Below are positions 46,531-58,349 of a stretch of DNA of 64,000 bases, piece after piece. Position numbers and translations under genes: made by a program. Under the pieces are notes generated by a model that saw nothing but the letters and a program-made list of their open reading frames with translations, did not search any database and had not been told where the DNA came from. Source of the DNA: Thermus sp. CCB_US3_UF1 (GTDB taxonomy: Bacteria; Deinococcota; Deinococci; Deinococcales; Thermaceae); contig NC_017278.1 in NCBI RefSeq assembly GCF_000236585.1, positions 1,302,001 to 1,366,000 of the forward strand. The letters are read 5' to 3'. Every line of letters begins with the position of its first letter. Position 1 is the stretch's first letter.

Positions 46531-47235
46531 CTAGAGGCTCAGGTAGGCCTCCCGCACCCTTGGGTCCTGCAGGAGATTGGTGGCGCTCCCCTTCAGGACG
46601 ATGCGCCCGTGCTCCATCACGTAAGCCCTACCCGCCACCTCCAGGCTCAGGGCCACGTTCTGCTCCACCAGGAGGACCCCCACCCCCTCCTCGGCCACCC
46701 GGCGCAGGGCCAAAAGCACCTCCTCGGCCAGCCGGGGCGAAAGGCCCAAGGAGGGTTCATCCACCAGAAGGATGCGGGGGAAGCCCATGAGGGCCCGGGC
46801 GATGGCCAGCATCTGCTGCTCCCCCCCGGAAAGGGTGCCGGCCAGCTGCCGCCTACGCTCGGCGAGGCGGGGAAAGAGGGCGTAGGCCCGGGCAAAGCCC
46901 TCCCCCTCCCGCCCTGGGGCCAGGAAGGCCGCCCCCAGGCGCAGGTTTTCCTCCACGCTCATGAGGGGGAAAAGCTGCCGCCCCTCGGGGACGTGGCCCA
47001 AGCCCAGCCGGGCCCGCCGGGCCGGGGAAAGGCCCTGGAGGTCCCTGCCATCCAGCTCCACCCTGCCCTTCCAGGGCTTAAGGAGCCCGGAGATGGTCCG
47101 GAGCAGGGTGGTCTTGCCCGCCCCATTGGCCCCCAGGAGGGCCACCAGCTCCCCCTCCTCCACCTCGAGGTCCACCCCGAAGAGGACCTGGGCCTTGGCG
47201 TAGCCCGACTCCAACCCTTCCACCCGCAGCCTCAT
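46531..47235 (-). CDS. Liv-type ABC transporter ATPase, LivF family
   Basis: This 234-residue ATPase has Walker [10 protein letters not shown], signature LSGGEQQM and Walker [14 protein letters not shown], with the LivF-typical [16 protein letters not shown]. It starts at ATG 47235, overlapping livG by 4 bp; a long upstream frame is overlap only. It is the last gene of the 55.3-46.5 kb operon. Confidence 0.93.
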
Positions 47236-47957
47236 GCCCGCCTCCCCAGGTAGGCCTCCCGCACCCGCTCCGCCTGGGCCACCGCCTCGTAAGGCCCCTC
47301 GGCGATCACCTCGCCGTAGTCCAGGACCACCACGCGGTCGGCCAGGGCCTTGACCACCGGCATCAGGTGCTCGATGAAGAGGATGGCCACCCCGCTTTCG
47401 CGGATGCGCCGCACCAGGGCGATGGCCTCCTCCGCCTCCTTGGGCCGCAGACCGGCCATGACCTCGTCCAGGAGGAGCACCTTGGGCCGGGTGGCCAGGG
47501 CCCGGGCCAGCTCCAGGCGCTTGTCCTCCAAAAGGGTCAGCTCCCCTGCCAGGGCCTCGGCCCGGGGGGCCAGGCCGGTCAGCTCCAGCACCCTTTCCAC
47601 CCAGGCCTCCCCTTCCCGCCTCGAGGCGCCCGGCTTGCCAAAAAGGGCCCCCACCAGGAGGTTCTCCCGCACCGTGAGCTCCGGCAGGGGCTGGACGATC
47701 TGGAAGGCCCGGCCCAGGCCGCGGTGGGTGCGGGCCTCCGGGGGCAGGTGGGTGACCTCCTCCCCCTGGAGGAAAACCCCTCCCCCATCGGGCCTGAGGA
47801 GGCCAGAGATCACGTTCAAAAGGGTGCTCTTTCCCGCCCCGTTGGGGCCGATGACCGCCAGGATCTCCCCCTCCTCGAGGTGCAGGTGCACCGCCTTCAA
47901 GGCCCAAAGGCCCAGGAAGCGCTTGCTAACCCCCTTGACCTCCAGCAGCCTAGCCAC
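47232..47957 (-). CDS. Liv-type ABC transporter ATPase, LivG family
   Basis: This 241-residue ATPase has Walker A GPNGAGKST and a LivG-like C-terminus GEVIAEGPYEAVAQAERVREAYLG. The signature motif reads LTLLEDKRLELARALA, so LSGGQ is replaced by LTLLE as in other LivG proteins. I prefer GTG 47957 (after GGGGAGGGCGGC) to an upstream ATG at 47987 that lies within livM. It overlaps livM by 8 bp. Confidence 0.92.
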   Translation of the reverse strand: MARLLEVKGVSKRFLGLWALKAVHLHLEEGEILAVIGPNGAGKSTLLNVISGLLRPDGGGVFLQGEEVTHLPPEARTHRGLGRAFQIVQPLPELTVRENLLVGALFGKPGASRREGEAWVERVLELTGLAPRAEALAGELTLLEDKRLELARALATRPKVLLLDEVMAGLRPKEAEEAIALVRRIRESGVAILFIEHLMPVVKALADRVVVLDYGEVIAEGPYEAVAQAERVREAYLGRRA

Positions 47958-48867
47958 GCCGCCCTCCCCAAAGGCCCAAGAGCCCACGGGGCAGGAAGAG
48001 GATGACCAGGACCAGGATGGCCCCGTAGACCACCAGGTACCCCTCCTTGATCCACAGGCGCAGGGCCTGCTCCAGCCCCACCAGGACCACCCCGCCCAGC
48101 AGGGGCCCTAAGGTGCTGTAAAGCCCCCCGAAGATGGGGATGACCAAGGCCTCCACCGCCCGGCCCAGGCTGAAGGCGTCGTAGGGGGAAAGGAAAAGGG
48201 CCTTCATGCCGTACACCCCCCCGGCCAGCCCCGCCACCAGGCTCCCCAGGAGGAGGGAAAGGAGCTTCACCCGCACCACCCGCACCCCCAGGACCCGGGC
48301 CACGGCCTCCGACTGGCGGGTGGCGGCCTGGGCCAGGCGGAAGGGGCTCCCCTCGGCCCAAAGGCTGAGGGCCACCGCCAGGAGGAAGGCCCCAAAGCCC
48401 AGGTAATAGGCGGCCAGGGGCCAAGCACCCCCAAAGGGCGGGGGCACGGGCAGGCCGATGGGCCCCCCGGTGAAGGCCAGGCGCAGGGTGAGGGTGCGCA
48501 GGACCTCGCTGAAGGCCAGGCTGGCGATGGCGAAGTAGAGGCCGTGGAGCCTTAAGGTAACGGCCCCCAGCACAAGGGCCCCGGCCCCGGCCAGCAAGGC
48601 CCCCAGGAGGAGGGCGGGGAGGGTCCCCAGCCCGGGGGCCAAAAGCCCGGCCCCATAGGCCCCAAGGCCGAAAAAGGCCCCGTGGGCCAAGGAAAGCTGC
48701 CCGGTGCGGGCCACCAGGTCCCAGGAGAGGGCCAAGGCGGTGAAGATGAGGACGAAGAAGCCCACGTCCAGGAGGAAGGCCCGCCACACCCCCAGGGGCA
48801 GGAAGGGCAGAAGGCCAAAGGCCAGGAGGAACCCTCCCACCGCCCAGCGCCGCGCCGATCCCCTCAT
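47950..48867 (-). CDS. Liv-type ABC transporter permease, LivM family
   Basis: This is a 305-residue membrane permease with the LivM motif GQLSLAHGAFFGLGAYGAG and a C-terminal IFGGLYSTLGPLLGGVVLVGLE. Start ATG 48867; the longer frame to 48933 is a poor low-complexity extension. It overlaps livH by 4 bp. Confidence 0.93.
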   Translation of the reverse strand: MRGSARRWAVGGFLLAFGLLPFLPLGVWRAFLLDVGFFVLIFTALALSWDLVARTGQLSLAHGAFFGLGAYGAGLLAPGLGTLPALLLGALLAGAGALVLGAVTLRLHGLYFAIASLAFSEVLRTLTLRLAFTGGPIGLPVPPPFGGAWPLAAYYLGFGAFLLAVALSLWAEGSPFRLAQAATRQSEAVARVLGVRVVRVKLLSLLLGSLVAGLAGGVYGMKALFLSPYDAFSLGRAVEALVIPIFGGLYSTLGPLLGGVVLVGLEQALRLWIKEGYLVVYGAILVLVILFLPRGLLGLWGGRRG

Positions 48868-49721
48868 ACCCCCCTCCAGGCCCGGCCCACCAGGGCCAGG
48901 AAGAGCACCAGGAAAAAGACCGCCTCCACCCACCCTCCCCCGCCCGGGACATAGGTGCTCACCAGGGCCTCCGCCACGGCCAAGACCATGGCCGCCGGCA
49001 CCACCCCCTTGAGGTTGCCTAGGCCCGCCAGGGCCACGATGGCGAAGGACTTCAGGGTGAAGAGGAAGCCCACGGAGGGGCTGGCGTAGAGCATCACCGA
49101 GAGCATCACCCCCGCCACCCCCGCCAAGGCGGCGGAAAGGCCAAAGGCCAGAAGGTAGACCCCATCGGCCTCAATCCCCAAAAGCCCCGGGGCCAGGCGG
49201 TTTTGCGCCACCGCCCGCACCGCCAGGCCCAGGCGGCTCCGGGTGAGGAAGAGCTGCAAGACCAGGAGCAAGGCCCCCGAGAGCAGGAAGGCCCCCAGGG
49301 GTACCGCCCCCAGGAAGAAGGGCCCCAGGGTCAGGGTGGTGGCCTGGTAGGGCGGGGCCACCACCCGGGTATCCGCGCCGAAGAGGAGGAGGGCCAGGTT
49401 CTGCAACAGGACGGAAAGGCCAAAGGTGAGGAGCATCTGGTTGAGCTCTGGGGCCCTGAGGACGGGGCGGATCAGGCCCCGATAGACCAGGGCCCCCACC
49501 AGGAAGGCGGCCAGGAAGGCCAGGCCCAGGGAGAGAAGGGGGTCCATCCCCTGGAAGGCGAAGAGCAGGTAGGAGAGGAAGGCCCCCAGCATGAGGAACT
49601 CCCCGTGGGCGAAGTTGACGATGCCCACCACCCCCAAGGAAAGGGCCAGGCCGGTGGCCACCAGGGCGTAGACCCCCGCCATGAGGAGGCCGTTGAGAAG
49701 GGTCTGGAAGAGGAGCTCCAT
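48864..49721 (-). CDS. Liv-type ABC transporter permease, LivH family
   Basis: This is a 285-residue polytopic permease with the LivH hallmark GVVGIVNFAHGEFLMLGAFLSY near residue 35. It follows the binding-protein gene by 19 bp and pairs with the LivM subunit. Confidence 0.93.
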   Translation of the reverse strand: MELLFQTLLNGLLMAGVYALVATGLALSLGVVGIVNFAHGEFLMLGAFLSYLLFAFQGMDPLLSLGLAFLAAFLVGALVYRGLIRPVLRAPELNQMLLTFGLSVLLQNLALLLFGADTRVVAPPYQATTLTLGPFFLGAVPLGAFLLSGALLLVLQLFLTRSRLGLAVRAVAQNRLAPGLLGIEADGVYLLAFGLSAALAGVAGVMLSVMLYASPSVGFLFTLKSFAIVALAGLGNLKGVVPAAMVLAVAEALVSTYVPGGGGWVEAVFFLVLFLALVGRAWRGV

Positions 49722-49740: not shown

Positions 49741-50916
49741 TCAGCGCAGGTAGTACTCCCCAGGGTAGCGAAGGGGCCGGGCGGCCTTTTCCTTGGGGAA
49801 GACCGGGCGGCGGGAGCCCTCGAGGTACTGGAACTGGAACCAGATCTCCGGTCCAAACCCCTGGTACTTGGTCCGGCCGGTGTCCGAGGGCTTAAAGGCC
49901 AGGGGGCCAAAGGGGGTATTCATGCGCAAGCCCGCCAGGGCCTGGGCGATCTGGTTCTTGTCCGTGCTCCCGGCTCGTTCCACCGCCAGGGCCAGGCTCT
50001 TGACGATGGTGTACCCCATGGGGGCCATGTACTCCTCCGTGACCTCCCCGTACTTCTTGCGGTAGGCCTCCACAAAGCGCCGGGACTCGGCGTTGGGCAC
50101 GGTGGGCAGCCAGGCGGTCATGCCGGCCACGTCGTTGGAAAGGGGGTTTTTCTCAAAGCCGATGGGCCAGGAGGGCGGGGCCCCGTAGATGAGCTTAGGC
50201 CTGAGGCCCACCTGCCGGGCCTGGGTGGCGATGGGCAGGGCGTCCACGTCGTAGCCGATCCAGTAGAGGATATCGGGGGCGAAGGCGCGGAAGCGGGTGA
50301 GGATGGGGGTGAACTGCCCGCTGCCCGCCTTGTAGGGTTCCGCCTGGACCTGGTAGCCGAGCCGCTCCAGCTGCTGCTTGTACACCGCGATCCCTGCCGA
50401 GCCAAAGGGGCCGTCCTCGTAGAGGATGGCCACCTTCTTGGCCCCATGGTCCTTGGCCAGGGACTGGAAGAACTGCAAGGCGGCGGTCACGTTGTGGTAG
50501 TCCCAGGGGTGGTAGTGGAAGAAGAGGGGGTAGCCCTCAAAGGCCTGCTCCACCACGGAGCTGGCAGCCCCGATGCACAGGAAAAGGGGCCCGTACTGCT
50601 TCACCGGCCCGGAAAGGGCAAAGGTGACCCCGCTGGCCAGACCCCCGATCACCACGTCCACCTTGTCCACGGTCATCAGCTTGGTGAAGGCGGGGACCGC
50701 CTTGGCCGCGTCCGTGCCGTCGTCGGCCACCACCAGCTCCAGCCTCACCTTGCCCTGGGCGTTCACCTCGTCGGCGGCCAGCTGGATGCCGTTGAGGGCC
50801 GCCTTGCCCGACACCGCCGAGACCCCGGAGAGGGGGAGGATCACCCCCACCTTCAGGGAGGTTTGCGCCAGGGCCAGCCCCATGGCGAGGACCAAGAACC
50901 CGATTGCCTTTCGCAT
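49741..50916 (-). CDS. Liv-family ABC transporter substrate-binding protein
   Basis: This 391-residue binding protein has a Sec signal peptide MRKAIGFLVLAMGLALAQ and the family start LKVGVILPLSGVSAVSGKAAL. It belongs to the Peripla_BP_6 group. A good AAAGGAGG site precedes the ATG. Its ligand is unknown; the upstream acyl-CoA ligase and hydratase genes suggest a carboxylic acid that is activated to a CoA ester. Confidence 0.92.
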   Translation of the reverse strand: MRKAIGFLVLAMGLALAQTSLKVGVILPLSGVSAVSGKAALNGIQLAADEVNAQGKVRLELVVADDGTDAAKAVPAFTKLMTVDKVDVVIGGLASGVTFALSGPVKQYGPLFLCIGAASSVVEQAFEGYPLFFHYHPWDYHNVTAALQFFQSLAKDHGAKKVAILYEDGPFGSAGIAVYKQQLERLGYQVQAEPYKAGSGQFTPILTRFRAFAPDILYWIGYDVDALPIATQARQVGLRPKLIYGAPPSWPIGFEKNPLSNDVAGMTAWLPTVPNAESRRFVEAYRKKYGEVTEEYMAPMGYTIVKSLALAVERAGSTDKNQIAQALAGLRMNTPFGPLAFKPSDTGRTKYQGFGPEIWFQFQYLEGSRRPVFPKEKAARPLRYPGEYYLR

Positions 50917-50935: not shown

Positions 50936-51370
50936 CTAGGGCCTTCCGCCCTCAGGTTCCTCTTCCGCCTCGTACAGCACCACCGCCTCCCCCTCGAGGA
51001 CCCTCTCCCCCCGCTGGTTCTCGCAGAAGGTGTCCAAGGTGAGGACCACCCCTCCCTTTTCCCGCTCCCGCACCGCCTTGACCACCGCGGTGGCGGTGAC
51101 GGTGTCCCCCAGGCGGGTGGGCTTGAGGAAGCGCAGGGTCTGGGAAAGGTAGATGGCCCCCCGGCCCGGGAGCTTGGTGCCGATGACCGTGGAGATCAGG
51201 CCCGCCACCAGGATCCCTTGGGCGATGCGGCCGCCAAAGCGGCTCCTTTGGGCGTAGACCTCGTCCACGTGCAGGGGGTTGGTGTCCCCCACCGCCCCCA
51301 CGAAGAGGGCCACATGGGCCTCGGAGAGGGTCTGGGTATAGCTGGCCTTATCCCCCACCTGGAACCTCAT
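50936..51370 (-). CDS. MaoC-like (R)-specific enoyl-CoA hydratase
   Basis: This 144-residue hot-dog-fold protein has the hydratase motif GDTNPLHVDEVYAQ, in which the Asp and His form the catalytic pair, and FGGRIAQGILVAGLIS. It hydrates trans-2-enoyl-CoA to (R)-3-hydroxyacyl-CoA. Its ATG overlaps the stop of the upstream hydrolase gene by 4 bp. Confidence 0.88.
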   Translation of the reverse strand: MRFQVGDKASYTQTLSEAHVALFVGAVGDTNPLHVDEVYAQRSRFGGRIAQGILVAGLISTVIGTKLPGRGAIYLSQTLRFLKPTRLGDTVTATAVVKAVREREKGGVVLTLDTFCENQRGERVLEGEAVVLYEAEEEPEGGRP

Positions 51371-52098
51371 GCCGCCACCTCCTTGAGGAACTCCCCCAGG
51401 ATCTCCCGGAAAAGGCCAGGATTTTCCAGGTTCACCGAGTGGCCCACCCCTTCCAGCACCCGAAGCCTCCCCCGGGGAAAGAAGGCCGCCGTGGCCTCGG
51501 CCATGCCCCGGGTGACCAGGGGGTCCAGGGCGCCGTAGACCACCAGGACCGGTCCCGGATAGGGCCTCCCCAGGCGCCAGGCCGCCAGGGCCCGGGCGTT
51601 GCCCTGGAAGTGGGCGGGGTGCATCCCCTGGGCCTTGGCCACCAGCTCGGGGAACCAGGGGGGCCTCCGGGTGGGGGCCATGGCCGCCAGGGCCTGGGAA
51701 AGGGCCTCGCGGTTCTCCCGGTAGCTCTCCAGGATGGGGTAGTAGGCCTCCGGGGTCTCTAGGCCCGAGGGCGGGGCCGGGTTGACCAGGAGGAGGCCCC
51801 GGGTCCCTTCCGTGGCCGCCTCCATGACCACCGCCCCGCCCAGGGAATGGCCCACCAGGATGGCCCCTTCCGCCCCTTTTTCCCGCAGGAAGGCCCGCAG
51901 GGCCTCGGCATAGGCGGGGATGGAGGGGGAAAAGCCTTCAGGGGCCGGGCTCTCCCCAAAGCCGGGAAGGTCGGGGGCCAGGAGCCAGGCTCCTTCCGGG
52001 GGGTCTTCCAGAAGCTCCCGCCACCACTCCTTGCAGGCGAAGTTGCCGTGCACCAGGACCACCGGGACACCCTTTCCGCTTTCCAGATGGCTAAGCAT
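51367..52098 (-). CDS. Alpha/beta-fold hydrolase
   Basis: This 243-residue hydrolase has the catalytic serine in GHSLGGAVV, the acid probably in YGALDPLVT, the histidine in VEGVGHSVNL and the oxyanion region LVHGNFACKEWW. It may be an esterase, a thioesterase or a ring-fission C-C hydrolase. Its GHSLGG elbow differs from the GLSNGG of the next hydrolase, so the two are not recent duplicates. It overlaps the flanking genes by 4 and 8 bp. Confidence 0.85.
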   Translation of the reverse strand: MLSHLESGKGVPVVLVHGNFACKEWWRELLEDPPEGAWLLAPDLPGFGESPAPEGFSPSIPAYAEALRAFLREKGAEGAILVGHSLGGAVVMEAATEGTRGLLLVNPAPPSGLETPEAYYPILESYRENREALSQALAAMAPTRRPPWFPELVAKAQGMHPAHFQGNARALAAWRLGRPYPGPVLVVYGALDPLVTRGMAEATAAFFPRGRLRVLEGVGHSVNLENPGLFREILGEFLKEVAA

Positions 52099-52864
52099 AC
52101 ACCTCCTCCAGAAACTGCCGTACCGCCTGGGCGAAGGCCAGGGGCGCCTCGAGGGGGGCGGCGTGCCCCGCGGGCAGGGCCTCCAACCGCGCCCCCAGGG
52201 CCTGGGCCAGGGCCGCCGCGTACTCCCCGGGAAAAAGCAGGTCCTCCTCCCCGTAGAGCACCCGGGCGGGAAGGGCGAGGGAGGCCAGCCGTGGCCGCAG
52301 GTCCCCCAAGGAGAGAAAGCCCAGAAGGAGCCTTTCCTGGGCGGCCTCCGTGGGGGCCTGGGCCAGGAGGGGGGCTAGGCCCTCGGGGGTGAGGAGCTCG
52401 GGGTGGGCGTTGAGGAACCCCTTGCCGAAGACCCAGGGCAGGGCCACGCGGAGGCGCAAGGGGGTACCCCCCGCCCGCAGGGCCCAAAGCCAGCTTTCCG
52501 CCTTGGCCCGCAGGGCCGCATCCAGGTAGGGGGTGGTGCAGCATAGGACCAGGCCGCGGAAGCGGCCCGGGGCCTGGAGGGCCGCGGTGAGGGCCACCAC
52601 CCCGCCGTTGGAAAGCCCCACCAGGACGGGGTTCTCCAGGCCAAGCCCCTCCAAGAGCTGGAGGAGGTCCTCGGCGTGCACCCCAGGGGTGTAGGGGCCA
52701 TGGGGGGCCTCGCTCTCCCCCTGGCCCCGCATGTCGTAGCGGAGGAGGGTGTAGCCGGAAAGGTGGGGAACCACCGGGTCCCAGCTCTCCAGCCGCTGGA
52801 AGAGGCCGTTGAGGAGGACCACCCCCGGCCCCTCCCCTTCCAAGCGGTACCTAAGCCTGGCCAT
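52091..52864 (-). CDS. Alpha/beta-fold hydrolase
   Basis: This 257-residue hydrolase has the nucleophile serine in VGLSNGGVVAL, the acid in YGEEDLLFP and the histidine in LPAGHAAPLE. The overall layout resembles 3-oxoadipate enol-lactonase and related esterases, but substrate assignment is not possible. It overlaps the acyl-CoA ligase end by 14 bp. Confidence 0.85.
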   Translation of the reverse strand: MARLRYRLEGEGPGVVLLNGLFQRLESWDPVVPHLSGYTLLRYDMRGQGESEAPHGPYTPGVHAEDLLQLLEGLGLENPVLVGLSNGGVVALTAALQAPGRFRGLVLCCTTPYLDAALRAKAESWLWALRAGGTPLRLRVALPWVFGKGFLNAHPELLTPEGLAPLLAQAPTEAAQERLLLGFLSLGDLRPRLASLALPARVLYGEEDLLFPGEYAAALAQALGARLEALPAGHAAPLEAPLAFAQAVRQFLEEVYA

Positions 52865-54330
52865 GCCCCTCCTCCCAAAGCCGCTTTAGGGCCTCCTTCT
52901 GCACCTTGCCGGGGCCGGTCTTGGGCAGGTCCTCCAGGATGACGAAGTGCTTGGGCACCTTGTAGGCGGCCAGCCGCTCCCGCAGGAAGGCCCGCAGGGC
53001 CTCGAGGTCCAAAGGGGCCCGCAGGGCCAAAAACGCCACCCCCACCTCCCCCCAGCGGGGGTCGGGCACCCCCACCACCGCCGCCTCCCGCACCGCCGGG
53101 TGGTCGTAGAGGACCCGTTCCACCTCCACCGGGTAGACGTTTTCCCCCCCGGAGATGAACATCTCCTTCCTGCGGCCCACGATGTAGAACCGCCCCCCCT
53201 CATCCCGGTAGGCCAGGTCCCCGGTCCTAAGCCAAAGCCGCTCCCCGTCGTAGACGAAGACCTTGGCGTTTTCTTCCGGGCGGCGGAAGTAGCCCTGCAT
53301 GACCACCCCTCCCGAAAGCCAAAGCTCCCCCGCCTCCCCCAACCCGGCCTCCCCCCCCCTCTTCCCGCACCAGGCGGGCCCGGAGGTGGGGCATGGGCCG
53401 GCCCACGCTCTCGGGGTAGGCCTCGGCCTCCTCCAGCTCCAAGGTGAAGCAGTTGACGCCGCACTCCGTGAGGCCGTAGCCCTGCTTGAAGCGCACCCCC
53501 TTCCTGCGGAAGGCCTCCCGCACCGGGGCCGGGCAGGGGGCCCCCCCAGAGATGGCGAAGCGCACAAAGGAGAGGTCGGCCTCCCAGAAGCCTGGGGTTT
53601 CCAGGAGCATCTGGAACATGGTGGGCACCAGGAAGAGGAGGGTGGGCCGGTGGGCCCGGACCAGCTCCAGGTACTCCTCGGGGCGGAAGCGCTCCTGCAG
53701 GACCACGCTCCCCCCCAGGTAGAGAAGGGGGGTGGCCAGGGCGTTGAGGGCGGCGTGGAACATGGGGGTGGCCAGGATGTAGCGGTCCTCCCGGGAAAGC
53801 CCCCAGGCGAAGGCCGTCTGGATGGCGTTCAGAAGGAGCTGGCGGTAGGGCAGGAGGGCCCCCTTGGGCAGCCCAGTGGTCCCCCCGGTGAAGAGGAGGA
53901 GGGCGGGGTCCTCCAGGCCCACCCGGGTGGCCTCCGGGGCCTCCTCCCCCTCCAGGAGGGCCTCGAGGGGAAGGGCCTTGGGGTCCAGGGCCAAAGCGGC
54001 CTCCGCAAACCCTTCCCCATAGAAGAGCACCCGGGGCTCGGCGTAGGCGTGGAGGGCCTTGAGCTCGGGCAGGCTCAGGCGGTGGTTGAAGGGGGTGAGG
54101 ATGTGGCCCAAAAGGGGCCCGGCGAAGAGGAGGTCCAGGTAAGCGGGGTGGTTCCAGGCGATGAGGCCCACCCGGTCCCCTTTCCCCACCCCAAGCCGCG
54201 CCAAAGCCCCAGCGGCCCGCCGCGCCCGCCCGTAGACCTCCCCGTAGGCGAGCCACCTTCCCCGGAACCAGACCGCGGGCCTTTCCGGATGGTAGCGGGC
54301 CAGCTGCCCCAGCCAGTTGGCCTCAAGCAT
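52851..54330 (-). pseudogene. AMP-dependent acyl-CoA ligase interrupted by a +1 frameshift at a G9 tract
   Basis: The N-terminal part (54330 to about 53360) reads as an acyl-CoA synthetase with LLFTGGTTGLPKGALL and GYGLTECGVN. Its frame then turns to low-complexity sequence, while the C-terminal part continues in another frame (to 52851) with LRTGDLAYRDEGGRFYIVGR and the catalytic lysine region LPKTGPGKVQKEALK. The switch coincides with nine G on the minus strand (53359-53351); eight G would restore one open frame of about 492 residues. This may be a sequencing error, a true mutation or a slippage site. If functional, it activates the imported acid with CoA and ATP. Confidence 0.82.
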
Positions 54331-55330
54331 AAAGCCCTCCTTCCAGGCGGAGGACGGCCGCCCCGTAGAAGTACCCCACCCCCGCCGCCGCCAGGGCCAC
54401 CAGGCTCCCCTCCCGCAGCCGTCCCGCCTCCCAGGCCAGCTTGAGGGAGAGGATGGGGTCCAGCTGCCCCAGGTGGCCGAAACGCTCCAGGTACAGGCTC
54501 TGCTCCGGTCCCAGGCCCAGGCCCTCCAGGACCGCCCGGTGGGCGGAGCGCTTCATGTGGAGGAGGGCCAGGTAGTCCAGGTCGGCCTCGGCGTACCCCG
54601 CCTCGGCCAAGGCCTCCCGCACCACCTCCAGGAAAGTGGGGATGGAGGTGGCGTCCAGACGGGCCTTCATGAAGGCCGGATCCTCCACCCGCAGGCGGAA
54701 CTCCCCTAGGGTTTCCGGCGTGAGGGGGGCGCGGGTACCCCCCACGGGCACCTTGACGGAGAGGGCCAGGCTGGGGTCCATGCGGTGGGCCAGGCCCAAC
54801 ACCCTAAGCCCCGGCCCCTCCCGGGTGAGGAGGATGGCCCCACCCCCCGCGGCCAGGTCGTAGAGGAAGCGGGTCTGGGGGTCCTGGTAGTCCACCAGGT
54901 CCCCGTTGCGGTACCCGCCGGCCACCAGCACCGCCCCCACCCCCTCCCGGGTGGCGAAAAGCCCCCGGGCCACCTCCAGGGCCCCCATGAGGGAGGCGCA
55001 CTTCTGGTTGAGGTCCAGCCCCCTGGCCCCCATGGCCCCCACCTGAAGGGCCAGGTAGGGCGCCGTGGCCCAGACCGGGTAGTCCTTGTACTCCTCCACC
55101 ATGGAAAGCACCCAGTCCACCCGCTCCCCCGGGAAGCCCGCGGCCTCCAGGGCGGCCTTGGCCGCCCAAGCCGCCATGGCCGCGGGGTGGTCCGAGGGGC
55201 CGGGCACGGGCTTTTGCACGATCCCCAGCTTCTCCACCACCACCTCCCGCGGCAGGCCGGAGCGCCGGGCGATCTCCTCCGCGTCCATGCGCCCTTCGGG
55301 CAGGTAAACCCCCAGGCTTCGCACGTACAT
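54323..55330 (-). CDS. 3-oxoacyl-ACP synthase III-like thiolase-superfamily condensing enzyme
   Basis: This 335-residue protein has a KAS III-type fold. The nucleophile cysteine is C111 in LNQKCASLMGALEVA, the conserved histidine probably lies in LLHMKRSAH or FGHLGQLDP, and GAILLTREG and GVGYFYGAAVLRL are typical. FabH proper is usually in a fatty acid cluster with acpP and fabD; here the neighbours are an acyl-CoA ligase, hydrolases and an importer, so a catabolic or acyl-transfer role is more likely. It is the first gene of the operon, and its ATG lies 8 nt after a TAGGGT element. Confidence 0.8.
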   Translation of the reverse strand: MYVRSLGVYLPEGRMDAEEIARRSGLPREVVVEKLGIVQKPVPGPSDHPAAMAAWAAKAALEAAGFPGERVDWVLSMVEEYKDYPVWATAPYLALQVGAMGARGLDLNQKCASLMGALEVARGLFATREGVGAVLVAGGYRNGDLVDYQDPQTRFLYDLAAGGGAILLTREGPGLRVLGLAHRMDPSLALSVKVPVGGTRAPLTPETLGEFRLRVEDPAFMKARLDATSIPTFLEVVREALAEAGYAEADLDYLALLHMKRSAHRAVLEGLGLGPEQSLYLERFGHLGQLDPILSLKLAWEAGRLREGSLVALAAAGVGYFYGAAVLRLEGGLYA

Positions 55331-55338
55331 CTGCCCTT

Positions 55339-55381
55339 ACCCTAGCCCCCGGGCGTTACCCGGACGTTACACCCCCGTTCC
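55339..55381 (-). promoter_or_regulatory. SARP-type operator and -10 element of the KAS III-ligase-liv operon
   Basis: Read on the minus strand, three heptamers GGAACGG, GTAACGT and GTAACGC lie 4 bp apart (11-bp pitch). Exactly 8 bp after the last is TAGGGT, a -10 hexamer, then 8 nt and the ATG at 55330. Direct heptamers at 11-bp pitch placed 8 bp from the -10 are the known layout of SARP-activated promoters, and the divergent gene encodes a SARP-like domain. Confidence 0.65.
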
Positions 55382-55395
55382 CGCCCGCCCTGGGG

Positions 55396-55401
55396 CAGAA
55401 T
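55396..55401 (+). promoter_or_regulatory. Leaderless -10 element of the activator gene
   Basis: CAGAAT lies 6 nt before the GTG start at 55408; GGAGG in the gap could alternatively be a ribosome site. Confidence 0.4.
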
Positions 55402-55407
55402 GGAGGC

Positions 55408-57984
55408 GTGCCCTACCCGGTGCCGCCCTCGAGGCTCCTCCCCCCGCGCACGGCCAAGGAGGTACGGCGTTCGCGCCCCTTGCGCCTCTTGGAAGAGGCC
55501 CTAAGCCATAGCCCTGGGGCCGTCCTGGCCGCCGGGGCCGGCTTTGGCAAGACCACCCTGGCCACCGAGGTGCCAGGGGTCTACCTCTCCCTGGCGGAGG
55601 AGGCCCAGGACCCCGCCGTCTTCCTCTGGCACCTCCTGGCCGCCTACCGCTCCCGGGCCCCGCTGGCCCAGGTGGAGGAACTCCTGGAGGCCGGGGCCTG
55701 GCCCAGGGCCCTGGAGGCCCTCCTCCAAGGGCTCAAGCCCCTCGGTCCCCACTTCCTGGTCCTGGACGAGGCCCACCGGGCGGAAAGCCCGGGAACCCTC
55801 AAGGTCCTCACCGGCCTCCTCCGCCTCCCCCACCTCCGCCTCCTCGTTCTCTCCCGCCGCACCACCCCCTTCGCCTTCCTCACGGTCCTGGGGGAACGGG
55901 AGCTGGCCTTCGACCCCGAGGAGGCCTGCCAGCTGGCCAAGGCCCTGGCCCCCGAGCTGCCCGCCTTTGAGGTGGAGCGGGCCCTTTCCCTGGTGAAGGG
56001 CTGGCCCTTGGGCCTGCGGGTGGTCCTCCTGGCCATGCGCCGGGGGCTCAAGCCCGAGCTGGCCCTGGAAAGCGGCGAGGGCCTCCTGGCCTACCTGGCC
56101 CACAGCCTGCCCCTAGAGGTGCTGGAGGTGGCCTCGAGGCTGGCCCTCCTGGGCGAGGTGGCCGAGGACCAAGGGGAGGCCCTCCTCCCCTACGCGGAGG
56201 ACCTCCTCCTGGAGCGCCGGGAGGGGCGGCTGGTCTTCCACCCCTTGGTGCGCAGCGCCCTCAAGGGGCGGCTAGCCGCTTCCGAGGCCCGGGTGCTCCT
56301 CACCCAGGCCGCCGAGGAGGCCCTGGCCCGGGGCGAGGGGGTGCGGGCGGCGGAGTACCTCCTGGAGGCGGGGCGGGTGGGGCATGCCGCCGACCTCCTC
56401 CTGCGGCAAGGAAGGGCCTGGCTGGAACGCGGGCTCACCTACACCGTCTTGCGCCTTCTCGGCCACCTGCCGGAGGAGGTGCGCCGGGGCCGGCGGGGCC
56501 TCCTCCTCCTCGAGGCCGAGGCCCTGCGCCAGGCGGGCCGCTACGGGGAGGCGGAAGCCGCCTACCGCAAGGCCCTGGAGGCCGGGGAGGAACGGGCTTA
56601 CCTGGGGCTGGTGCGGCTTTTCCTGGACACGGTGGAGCCCGCCCGGGCCAAGCCCTACCTGGAGGAGGCCCTAAAGCGCTTCCCCCAGGAGGGGAAGCCC
56701 CTCCTGGCGGAAAACCTCCTCAACGAGGGCCGCGCCGCCGAGGCCGCGGCCTTGGGCCTGGAGGGCCCCCGGCTCCTCCTCCGCCAGGGACGGCCCCAGG
56801 AGGCCTTGGCCCTCCTCCGGGAGGCCAAGGACCCGGGCCTCCACCGCCCCCCCCAGAACCACCGGGAGGGAAGCCTGCTCCGGGCCCTTCTGGAGTGCGT
56901 GGCGGGGGATGCGGAGGAAGGGCTGCGCTGGGCGGAACGGGGACGCTTGGAAGCCGAAGCCCTGGGAAGCCCCTTCGGCGTGAGCCTGGCCGAGGCCCGG
57001 CGGGGGCACGCCCTTTTAGCCCTCGGGCGATGGAAGGAGGCAGAGGAAGCCTATCGTGGGGCCCTGGCCTTGGCCGAGGGCGGGCCCGCCCGGCTCCAGG
57101 TGGAGGCCTTAGGGGGGCTGGCCGCCTTGGGGGCCCCCGGCGCCTTCGCGGAGATGGTGCGGCTAGCCCGGACCGCAGGGGACCTCTGGGTAGAGGGGTT
57201 TCTCACCCTCATGGTGGCCACGGCCCGCCTGCGGCAGGGGGAGGGCTTTCCCCTGCCCGCCCTCCCCCCCTTGGACCCCTTCCTCCAGGCCTTGGCGGAG
57301 GCCTATCCCTTCGGCGACGGCTGGGAGGGGCTTTTGCAGCGCTACCCCTTCCTGGAGGGGCGCACCCTTTTCGCCCCTCCCCTACCCCGGGTGCGCCGGG
57401 CCCTTTGGCGGCTGGGCCGGCTTTCCCTCCCCTACCATCCCGGGGTGCGGGTGGAGGTAAGGGCCCTGGGGGGCTTCGCCGTCTGGGTGGAGGGCCGGCC
57501 CGTGCGCTTCCGCCGGGAAAAGGCCCGGCTCCTTTTGGCCCTCCTCTCCGCCCGGGACTGGGAAAAGGAGGACCTCCTGGAGGCCCTGGATGTCTCCCCA
57601 GGGGAGTTCCGGGTGCTCTGGTGGGAGGTGCTCAACGCCCTGGAGCCGGGCAGGCCCCGGGGGGCGGAAGCCTACTTCCTCCGGGTGCGGCCCTACGGCC
57701 TCCGCCTCGAGGCCCCAGAGCTCTACCTGGACCTCCTGGACCCCCAAGCCCCCTTCGCCCCCCCCTACCGCGGCCTGGACCACCCTGCCCTGGACGAACG
57801 GGCCCAGGCCTACACCGAAGCCCGCCGGCACGCCCTCCTGCAAAGCCCCCGCCCCCAGGACTGGCTGGAGGCCTTGCGCCTGGACCCCCTGGAGGAGGAG
57901 GCCTGGGCCCGCCTGCAGGGCACCCCCTGGGCCGAGGAGGCCTCGCGCCTGCGGCAGGCCGCCCTGAGGGAGTTGGGGCTCTGA
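55408..57984 (+). CDS. STAND-ATPase transcriptional activator with C-terminal SARP/BTAD-like DNA-binding domain
   Basis: This 858-residue regulator has an N-terminal P-loop (AAGAGFGKTT, about 41-50) with Walker B FLVLDEAH near 118, as in MalT-type STAND proteins. A TPR-like helical region follows (about 300-640). The last 180 residues begin VRALGGFAVWVEGRPVRFR (about 682), the hallmark of the SARP winged helix, followed by a BTAD-like segment. MalT itself ends in a LuxR helix-turn-helix, so the domain order here differs. It is divergent from the operon starting at 55330, whose promoter has SARP-type repeats, and probably activates it in response to an unknown inducer. Confidence 0.82.
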   Translation: MPYPVPPSRLLPPRTAKEVRRSRPLRLLEEALSHSPGAVLAAGAGFGKTTLATEVPGVYLSLAEEAQDPAVFLWHLLAAYRSRAPLAQVEELLEAGAWPRALEALLQGLKPLGPHFLVLDEAHRAESPGTLKVLTGLLRLPHLRLLVLSRRTTPFAFLTVLGERELAFDPEEACQLAKALAPELPAFEVERALSLVKGWPLGLRVVLLAMRRGLKPELALESGEGLLAYLAHSLPLEVLEVASRLALLGEVAEDQGEALLPYAEDLLLERREGRLVFHPLVRSALKGRLAASEARVLLTQAAEEALARGEGVRAAEYLLEAGRVGHAADLLLRQGRAWLERGLTYTVLRLLGHLPEEVRRGRRGLLLLEAEALRQAGRYGEAEAAYRKALEAGEERAYLGLVRLFLDTVEPARAKPYLEEALKRFPQEGKPLLAENLLNEGRAAEAAALGLEGPRLLLRQGRPQEALALLREAKDPGLHRPPQNHREGSLLRALLECVAGDAEEGLRWAERGRLEAEALGSPFGVSLAEARRGHALLALGRWKEAEEAYRGALALAEGGPARLQVEALGGLAALGAPGAFAEMVRLARTAGDLWVEGFLTLMVATARLRQGEGFPLPALPPLDPFLQALAEAYPFGDGWEGLLQRYPFLEGRTLFAPPLPRVRRALWRLGRLSLPYHPGVRVEVRALGGFAVWVEGRPVRFRREKARLLLALLSARDWEKEDLLEALDVSPGEFRVLWWEVLNALEPGRPRGAEAYFLRVRPYGLRLEAPELYLDLLDPQAPFAPPYRGLDHPALDERAQAYTEARRHALLQSPRPQDWLEALRLDPLEEEAWARLQGTPWAEEASRLRQAALRELGL

Positions 57985-58081: not shown

Positions 58082-58157
58082 TGGCGGGCCCGGAGGGATT
58101 CGAACCCCCGACCTACCGCTTAGAAGGCGGCTGCTCTGTCCCCTGAGCTACGGGCCC
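58082..58157 (-). tRNA. tRNA-Arg (anticodon TCT)
   Basis: A 76-nt cloverleaf with acceptor GGGCCCG/CGGGCCC, anticodon loop CTTCTAA (TCT, reading AGA/AGG), T-arm GGTTCGAATCC and encoded GCCA. It is the last tRNA of the three-gene cluster. Confidence 0.96.
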
Positions 58158-58195
58158 ATGGACGAAGCCGGGGTGGGCTTCCACCCCGGCCCTCT

Positions 58196-58271
58196 TGGAG
58201 CGGGAGACGGGACTCGAACCCGCGACCCTCGGCTTGGAAGGCCGATGCTCTACCAACTGAGCTACTCCCGC
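58196..58271 (-). tRNA. tRNA-Gly (anticodon TCC)
   Basis: A 76-nt cloverleaf with acceptor GCGGGAG/CTCCCGC, anticodon loop CTTCCAA (TCC), T-arm GGTTCGAGTCC and encoded TCCA. Its 5' end is only 1 nt from the CCA end of tRNA-Pro. Confidence 0.96.
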
Positions 58272-58272
58272 G

Positions 58273-58349
58273 TGGTCGGGGCGGCCCGATTTGAACGGGC
58301 GACCCCCTGCTCCCAAAGCAGGTGCGCTACCGGCCTGCGCTACGCCCCG
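58273..58349 (-). tRNA. tRNA-Pro (anticodon TGG)
   Basis: A 77-nt cloverleaf with acceptor CGGGGCG/CGCCCCG, anticodon stem CCTGC/GCAGG and loop TTTGGGA (TGG), T-loop TTCAAAT and encoded ACCA. It is first in the transcript order Pro-Gly-Arg. Confidence 0.96.

Follow-up and report, generated by a model that had tools for sequence, protein, structure and literature searches.

The window analysed here, a stretch of 64,000 nucleotides from Thermus sp. CCB_US3_UF1, contains direct repeats between two divergent genes, and the question is which protein reads these repeats and which gene they serve. We propose that two of them form the operator of an activator of the SARP type (Streptomyces antibiotic regulatory protein), encoded by the divergent gene at 55408-57984, which would switch on a single operon consisting of a KASIII-like gene (KAS), an acyl-CoA ligase gene, hydrolase genes and a Liv-type transporter. 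The probability of this reading is put at roughly 0.78.

The bases and spacings in the original prediction agree completely with the window sequence. The minus strand reads GGAACGG (55381-55375), N4, GTAACGT (55370-55364), N4, GTAACGC (55359-55353), N8, TAGGGT (55344-55339), N8 and ATG (55330). The elements of the KAS promoter are as follows.

55375-55381, minus strand: GGAACGG, originally taken as a third repeat; probably a chance resemblance.
55365-55372, minus strand: upstream conserved repeat, GTGTAACG.
55354-55361, minus strand: downstream conserved repeat, GGGTAACG, at 11-bp pitch to the former.
55339-55344, minus strand: −10 element TAGGGT (TAnnnT) of the KAS operon, of the leaderless type, 8 nt from the ATG.

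The −10 element of leaderless genes in Deinococcus-Thermus is TANNNT (PMC12340547). If the −10 element is placed at −12 to −7, the upstream repeat spans about −40 to −33 and the downstream repeat about −29 to −22. Base composition predicts about 0.003 occurrences of GTAACG-N5-GTAACG in 64 kb, so that two such cores at 11-bp pitch are more than chance. The repeat pair together with the −10 element is expected 0.0002 times per genome and was observed once.

The regulator and the KAS gene were searched in 61 related genomes, and the intergenic regions were then read out. The 26 promoters that were aligned come from all 25 Thermaceae genomes of this set with a KAS gene and from one genome of a neighbouring family (G039). 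The pattern KGTAACR-N4-KGTAACR-N9-TAnnnT, with its 11-bp pitch, is present in all 26. The GTAAC core of both repeats and the T, A and last T of the −10 element are invariant, while the four spacer bases show no constraint except for a favoured G ahead of the second repeat. Judging from this alignment, the natural repeat unit is (G)KGTAACR-NNN, with eight conserved and three free bases, rather than the heptamer GTAACGN. The original prediction of three direct repeats thus stands for the two promoter-proximal ones, whereas GGAACGG, whose columns carry at most 0.47 bit in the 26 promoters, was rejected as a third. In the 26 promoters the repeats keep a fixed distance to the −10 element but lie anywhere from 23 to 48 nt from the start codon, indicating that the element belongs to the promoter and not to an mRNA leader, and acts in transcription. 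A −35 hexamer above chance was found in none of the 26 promoters at spacings of 15-19 bp.

The element is likewise present in eleven further genomes searched later. Loss of the repeats where the gene pair is kept, one of the outcomes named beforehand as speaking against the prediction, was not seen; the repeats are found in every KAS promoter examined, that is, in those of Thermaceae and of two genomes of a neighbouring family. A genome scan, as had been proposed, was made with the full pattern and a tolerance of one mismatch. Of 27 Thermus genomes, the 16 with KAS contain exactly one match each and the 11 without KAS contain none; a reversed-pattern control gave zero matches in the same genomes. 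In the loci that were inspected, matches to the strict pattern outside KAS resembled background or other systems. The site is also absent in four of four inspected KAS homologues (about 52% identity) of another family, where the regulator is lacking. Two genomes of 5.6-6 Mb from another family in the order (G102 and G106) each contain two to three TGTAACR-pair sites that are accompanied by a −10 element, twice upstream of a flippase-like gene; the regulator is absent there.

The genes of the predicted target operon are listed below.

54323-55330, minus strand: KASIII-like gene (NCBIfam NF005308; 443 bits against a cut-off of 315), first gene of the target operon.
52851-54330, minus strand: AMP-forming acyl-CoA ligase gene, assigned by orthologue family, split here into two frames by a single additional G in a nine-G run (53351-53359).
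52091-52864, minus strand: alpha/beta hydrolase 1 (Pfam PF00561).
51367-52098, minus strand: alpha/beta hydrolase 2 (Pfam PF12697).
49741-50916, minus strand: Liv-type ABC transporter substrate-binding protein (Pfam PF13458).
46531-49721, minus strand: Liv-type ABC transporter permeases and ATPases (livH, livM, livG, livF), seen as ORFs in the same order in related genomes.

The order KAS, ligase, hydrolases and Liv transporter is conserved in related genomes; in the operons examined from Meiothermus and Calidithermus, alpha/beta hydrolase 2 was not found. The extra G, recognised against two orthologues, may be a sequencing error, a recent inactivation or a site of slippage. As a guess, the pathway could serve the uptake and activation of an organic acid freed from an ester or lactone.

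Among 50 Thermaceae genomes, the regulator and KAS are both present in 36 and both absent in 13; the regulator occurs alone in one and KAS alone in none. For the distribution as a whole, and for two of the 13 genomes with both absent, neither relatedness nor gaps in the assemblies (G025 has a completeness of 65%) are taken into account. Fisher's test on the first 37 genomes gives p of about 1e-8, again with relatedness ignored, and the co-occurrence is partly inherited along the tree. In a held-out test, ten genomes were retrieved by the regulator alone; KAS is present in every one of them, immediately preceded by the site. The orphan regulator gene, that of Thermus scotoductus DSM 8553 (G011), is missing its first codons and has deletions that none of the others shows, as would be expected once its target had been lost. 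Where the regulator and KAS genes lie apart, the site remains before KAS and none stands before the regulator, suggesting that the divergent KAS operon, rather than the regulator gene itself, is the target; a mainly autoregulatory role was rejected on this ground.

Some arrangements around the locus should be noted. In G010 (C1 near 246230) and G014 (L099:7472-10492), a gene of about 1000 amino acids for an N-terminal SARP lies between the KAS operon and the regulator, adjoining the KAS promoter and divergent from KAS. The regulator of G021 (G021:C1:1321353-1322405; L027, L029) is without residues ~300 to 785, with KAS and site intact. A Meiothermus genome has a second, broken regulator copy (G078:C1:1432478-1433586; about 53% identity to the query) near the full one. 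Three tRNA genes (Arg, Gly and Pro; 58082-58349, minus strand) lie downstream of the regulator in the window.

In six Meiothermus genomes, a second promoter contains GGTAACA-N4-TGTAACA at the same distance to a −10 element (L131:2194-3320, L132, L133, L141, L142 and L143). The gene behind it encodes an alpha/beta hydrolase of 354 amino acids and is led by a Shine-Dalgarno sequence; in G034 the promoter was read with the start of the hydrolase gene visible in part only. Hydrolases thus recur in the predicted regulon.

The divergent ORF is present as stated. Its features are as follows.

55396-55401, plus strand: possible −10 element (CAGAAT) of the regulator gene, 6 nt from the GTG; similar hexamers stand beside the start codon in several orthologues.
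55408-57984, plus strand: regulator of 858 amino acids with a MalT-like NTPase (Walker A GAGFGKTT), a TPR region and a C-terminal SARP-like domain.
57412-57984, plus strand: the C-terminal SARP-like domain (OmpR-type winged helix and BTAD-like helices).

Residues 7-213 match the MalT model with an E value of 4.8e-14, far below that model's full-length cut-off, and the P-loop NTPase with its Walker A motif is followed by TPR, as in STAND/MalT-like proteins. The proposed SARP/BTAD-like character of the C-terminus is supported by a predicted structure: the last 190 residues were modelled by AF2 (mean pLDDT 93.3) as a winged helix followed by helices, corresponding to a full SARP domain. The best matches to this model are AfsR (8K60, Z 10.7; 8HVR, Z 10.5) and EmbR (2FF4, Z 10.6; 2FEZ, Z 10.0), the sole structures covering both halves, whereas OmpR/PhoB-type domains match only the first half (Z up to 8.9). 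With an rmsd of 4.2-4.5 Å over 170-176 residues, the resemblance to AfsR and EmbR is one of fold and is not close. None of 23 members of the regulator family matches Pfam PF03704 (BTAD) or PF00486 (Trans_reg_C), and a sequence search of solved structures with the regulator gave no SARP match. On the model, therefore, the domain belongs to the SARP family (OmpR-type DNA-binding domain, then BTAD) by fold and not by sequence. It is C-terminal, after NTPase and TPR, and not N-terminal as in Streptomyces members. A candidate covariation between the Trp/Ser after GEFRVLW and base 7 of the upstream repeat was dropped; Thermus and Meiothermus agree with it, but in the MAG behind L115 (G068/G093) a Ser goes with a G-type site.

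The main rival is that the repeats are bound by another winged-helix regulator, either a response regulator of the OmpR/PhoB type or another SARP of the genome. PhoB-like proteins likewise bind direct repeats at 11-bp pitch. Candidates are at hand: Thermus genomes have 5-12 Trans_reg_C matches each, besides other BTAD proteins, and this genome has three other BTAD regions and seven matches to OmpR-type regulators. The N-terminal SARP gene that adjoins KAS in G010 and G014 fits such a protein, and the G021 regulator, lacking much of its middle where site and KAS are kept, counts against the preferred reading. Because OmpR-type regulators occur in every Thermus genome searched, co-occurrence alone is no argument against them. 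However, winged-helix regulators of these kinds also occur in genomes without the site, and further sites would be expected for a regulator that had other tasks, whereas this site is unique in each Thermus genome that has it. For other SARPs, T. composti (G015) is informative: site and regulator are present, yet no BTAD protein is recognised by Pfam. We consider this rival unlikely.

A repressor role of the same regulator, which would cover the promoter until a ligand frees it, appears less probable still. The site does overlap the RNA polymerase footprint, and the divergent layout of regulator and target is common for repressors too. On the other hand, the promoters lack the −35 hexamer that unaided transcription would require, the element stands in the same register as the site of the activator AfsR, and STAND regulators such as MalT are activators. 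That the repeats are a conserved promoter part without a dedicated protein, or mere inheritance, is very improbable: relatedness accounts for some of the conservation between close genomes, but the GTAAC cores are invariant across genera and in a second family where neighbouring bases are free to vary, and the same element precedes an unrelated gene in the six Meiothermus genomes.

SARP-type activation of the KAS operon by the divergent regulator is thus preferred, and activator-dependent transcription is the parsimonious reading. The geometry on which the original prediction relied, 11-bp pitch with the last repeat 8 bp from the −10 element, is the published one (PMC10936776). SARP-type operators have direct repeats at 11 or 22 bp, with the 3′ repeat 8 bp from the −10 element and over the −35 position, and the element here has this form. 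For AfsR, the two 11-bp repeats occupy −40 to −19 and are bound by a pair of adjacent SARP protomers, which contact the first 8 of the 11 bp in each repeat and hold sigma region 4, replacing a poor −35 (PMC10936776). The present element coincides with that box, provided that TAnnnT is placed at −12 to −7. Conservation, the fixed register with the −10 element, uniqueness in Thermus, co-occurrence and the modelled fold are what the analysis shows in support of the predicted regulator-operator pair; binding of the repeats, activation rather than repression, and a signal are inferred. A signal, presumably a ligand together with ATP, would act through the NTPase and TPR parts of the regulator. Two C-terminal SARP domains would then bind next to each other along the same face of the DNA, between about −40 and −19, stand in for the missing −35 and hold sigma region 4 and RNA polymerase. 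The leaderless KAS-ligase-hydrolase-Liv operon would thereby be switched on.

This yields a concrete prediction of regulator, site and target in thermophiles, where few regulators have known sites, and it rests on dozens of genomes and the held-out test. It also hints at the signal for the operon: the expected inducer would be a compound that the pathway consumes or makes. If the prediction is true, the SARP promoter design is at work with another domain order, another DNA word and a catabolic-looking target, and heat-stable proteins would be available for work on a STAND regulator in combination with RNA polymerase. We lean slightly towards a broader interpretation, in which SARP-type activation, with monomers side by side at −40 to −19 replacing the −35, also exists beyond Actinobacteria, where a STAND protein of reversed domain order uses it to switch one operon in response to a metabolite. 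On this view, the promoter geometry would come with the SARP fold itself and would either predate antibiotic regulation or be independent of it.

Known systems share different parts of this arrangement. MalT resembles the regulator in its N-terminal NTPase and in having its DNA-binding domain at the C-terminus. The C-terminal part of MalT is, however, a LuxR-type helix-turn-helix, and its binding sites are different. The winged helix and BTAD fold, matched in both domains, is found in EmbR of Mycobacterium tuberculosis (2FEZ, 2FF4), which has an FHA domain where the Thermus regulator has NTPase-TPR. DnrS of Thermus thermophilus, the only protein of this type in Thermus found in the literature, is an activator whose C-terminal BTAD is a precedent for the position seen here; it differs in its GAF sensor and its control of nitrate respiration, and the parts of its description available to us give no operator of the 11-bp repeat kind (PMC5748679). 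PimR and other SARP-LAL regulators share heptamer repeats with 4-bp spacers, the need for two monomers and few or single targets, whereas the main operator of PimR consists of three CGGCAAG repeats not overlapping the −35, and its SARP domain is N-terminal (PMC5930380). AfsR of Streptomyces coelicolor, a large SARP, differs in several respects. The order here, NTPase-TPR-SARP, is the reverse of that in AfsR and the Streptomyces large SARPs; the repeat word here is (G)KGTAACR; the SARP part has about 190 residues against about 250 in AfsR and is without a Pfam match to SARP/BTAD; and the target is an acid-metabolism operon instead of an antibiotic regulator gene. AfsR nevertheless combines STAND NTPase, TPR and SARP domain in one protein, and its afs box, at about −40 to −19, likewise consists of two 11-bp direct repeats that replace the −35, with the 3′ repeat 8 bp from the −10 element (PMC10936776).
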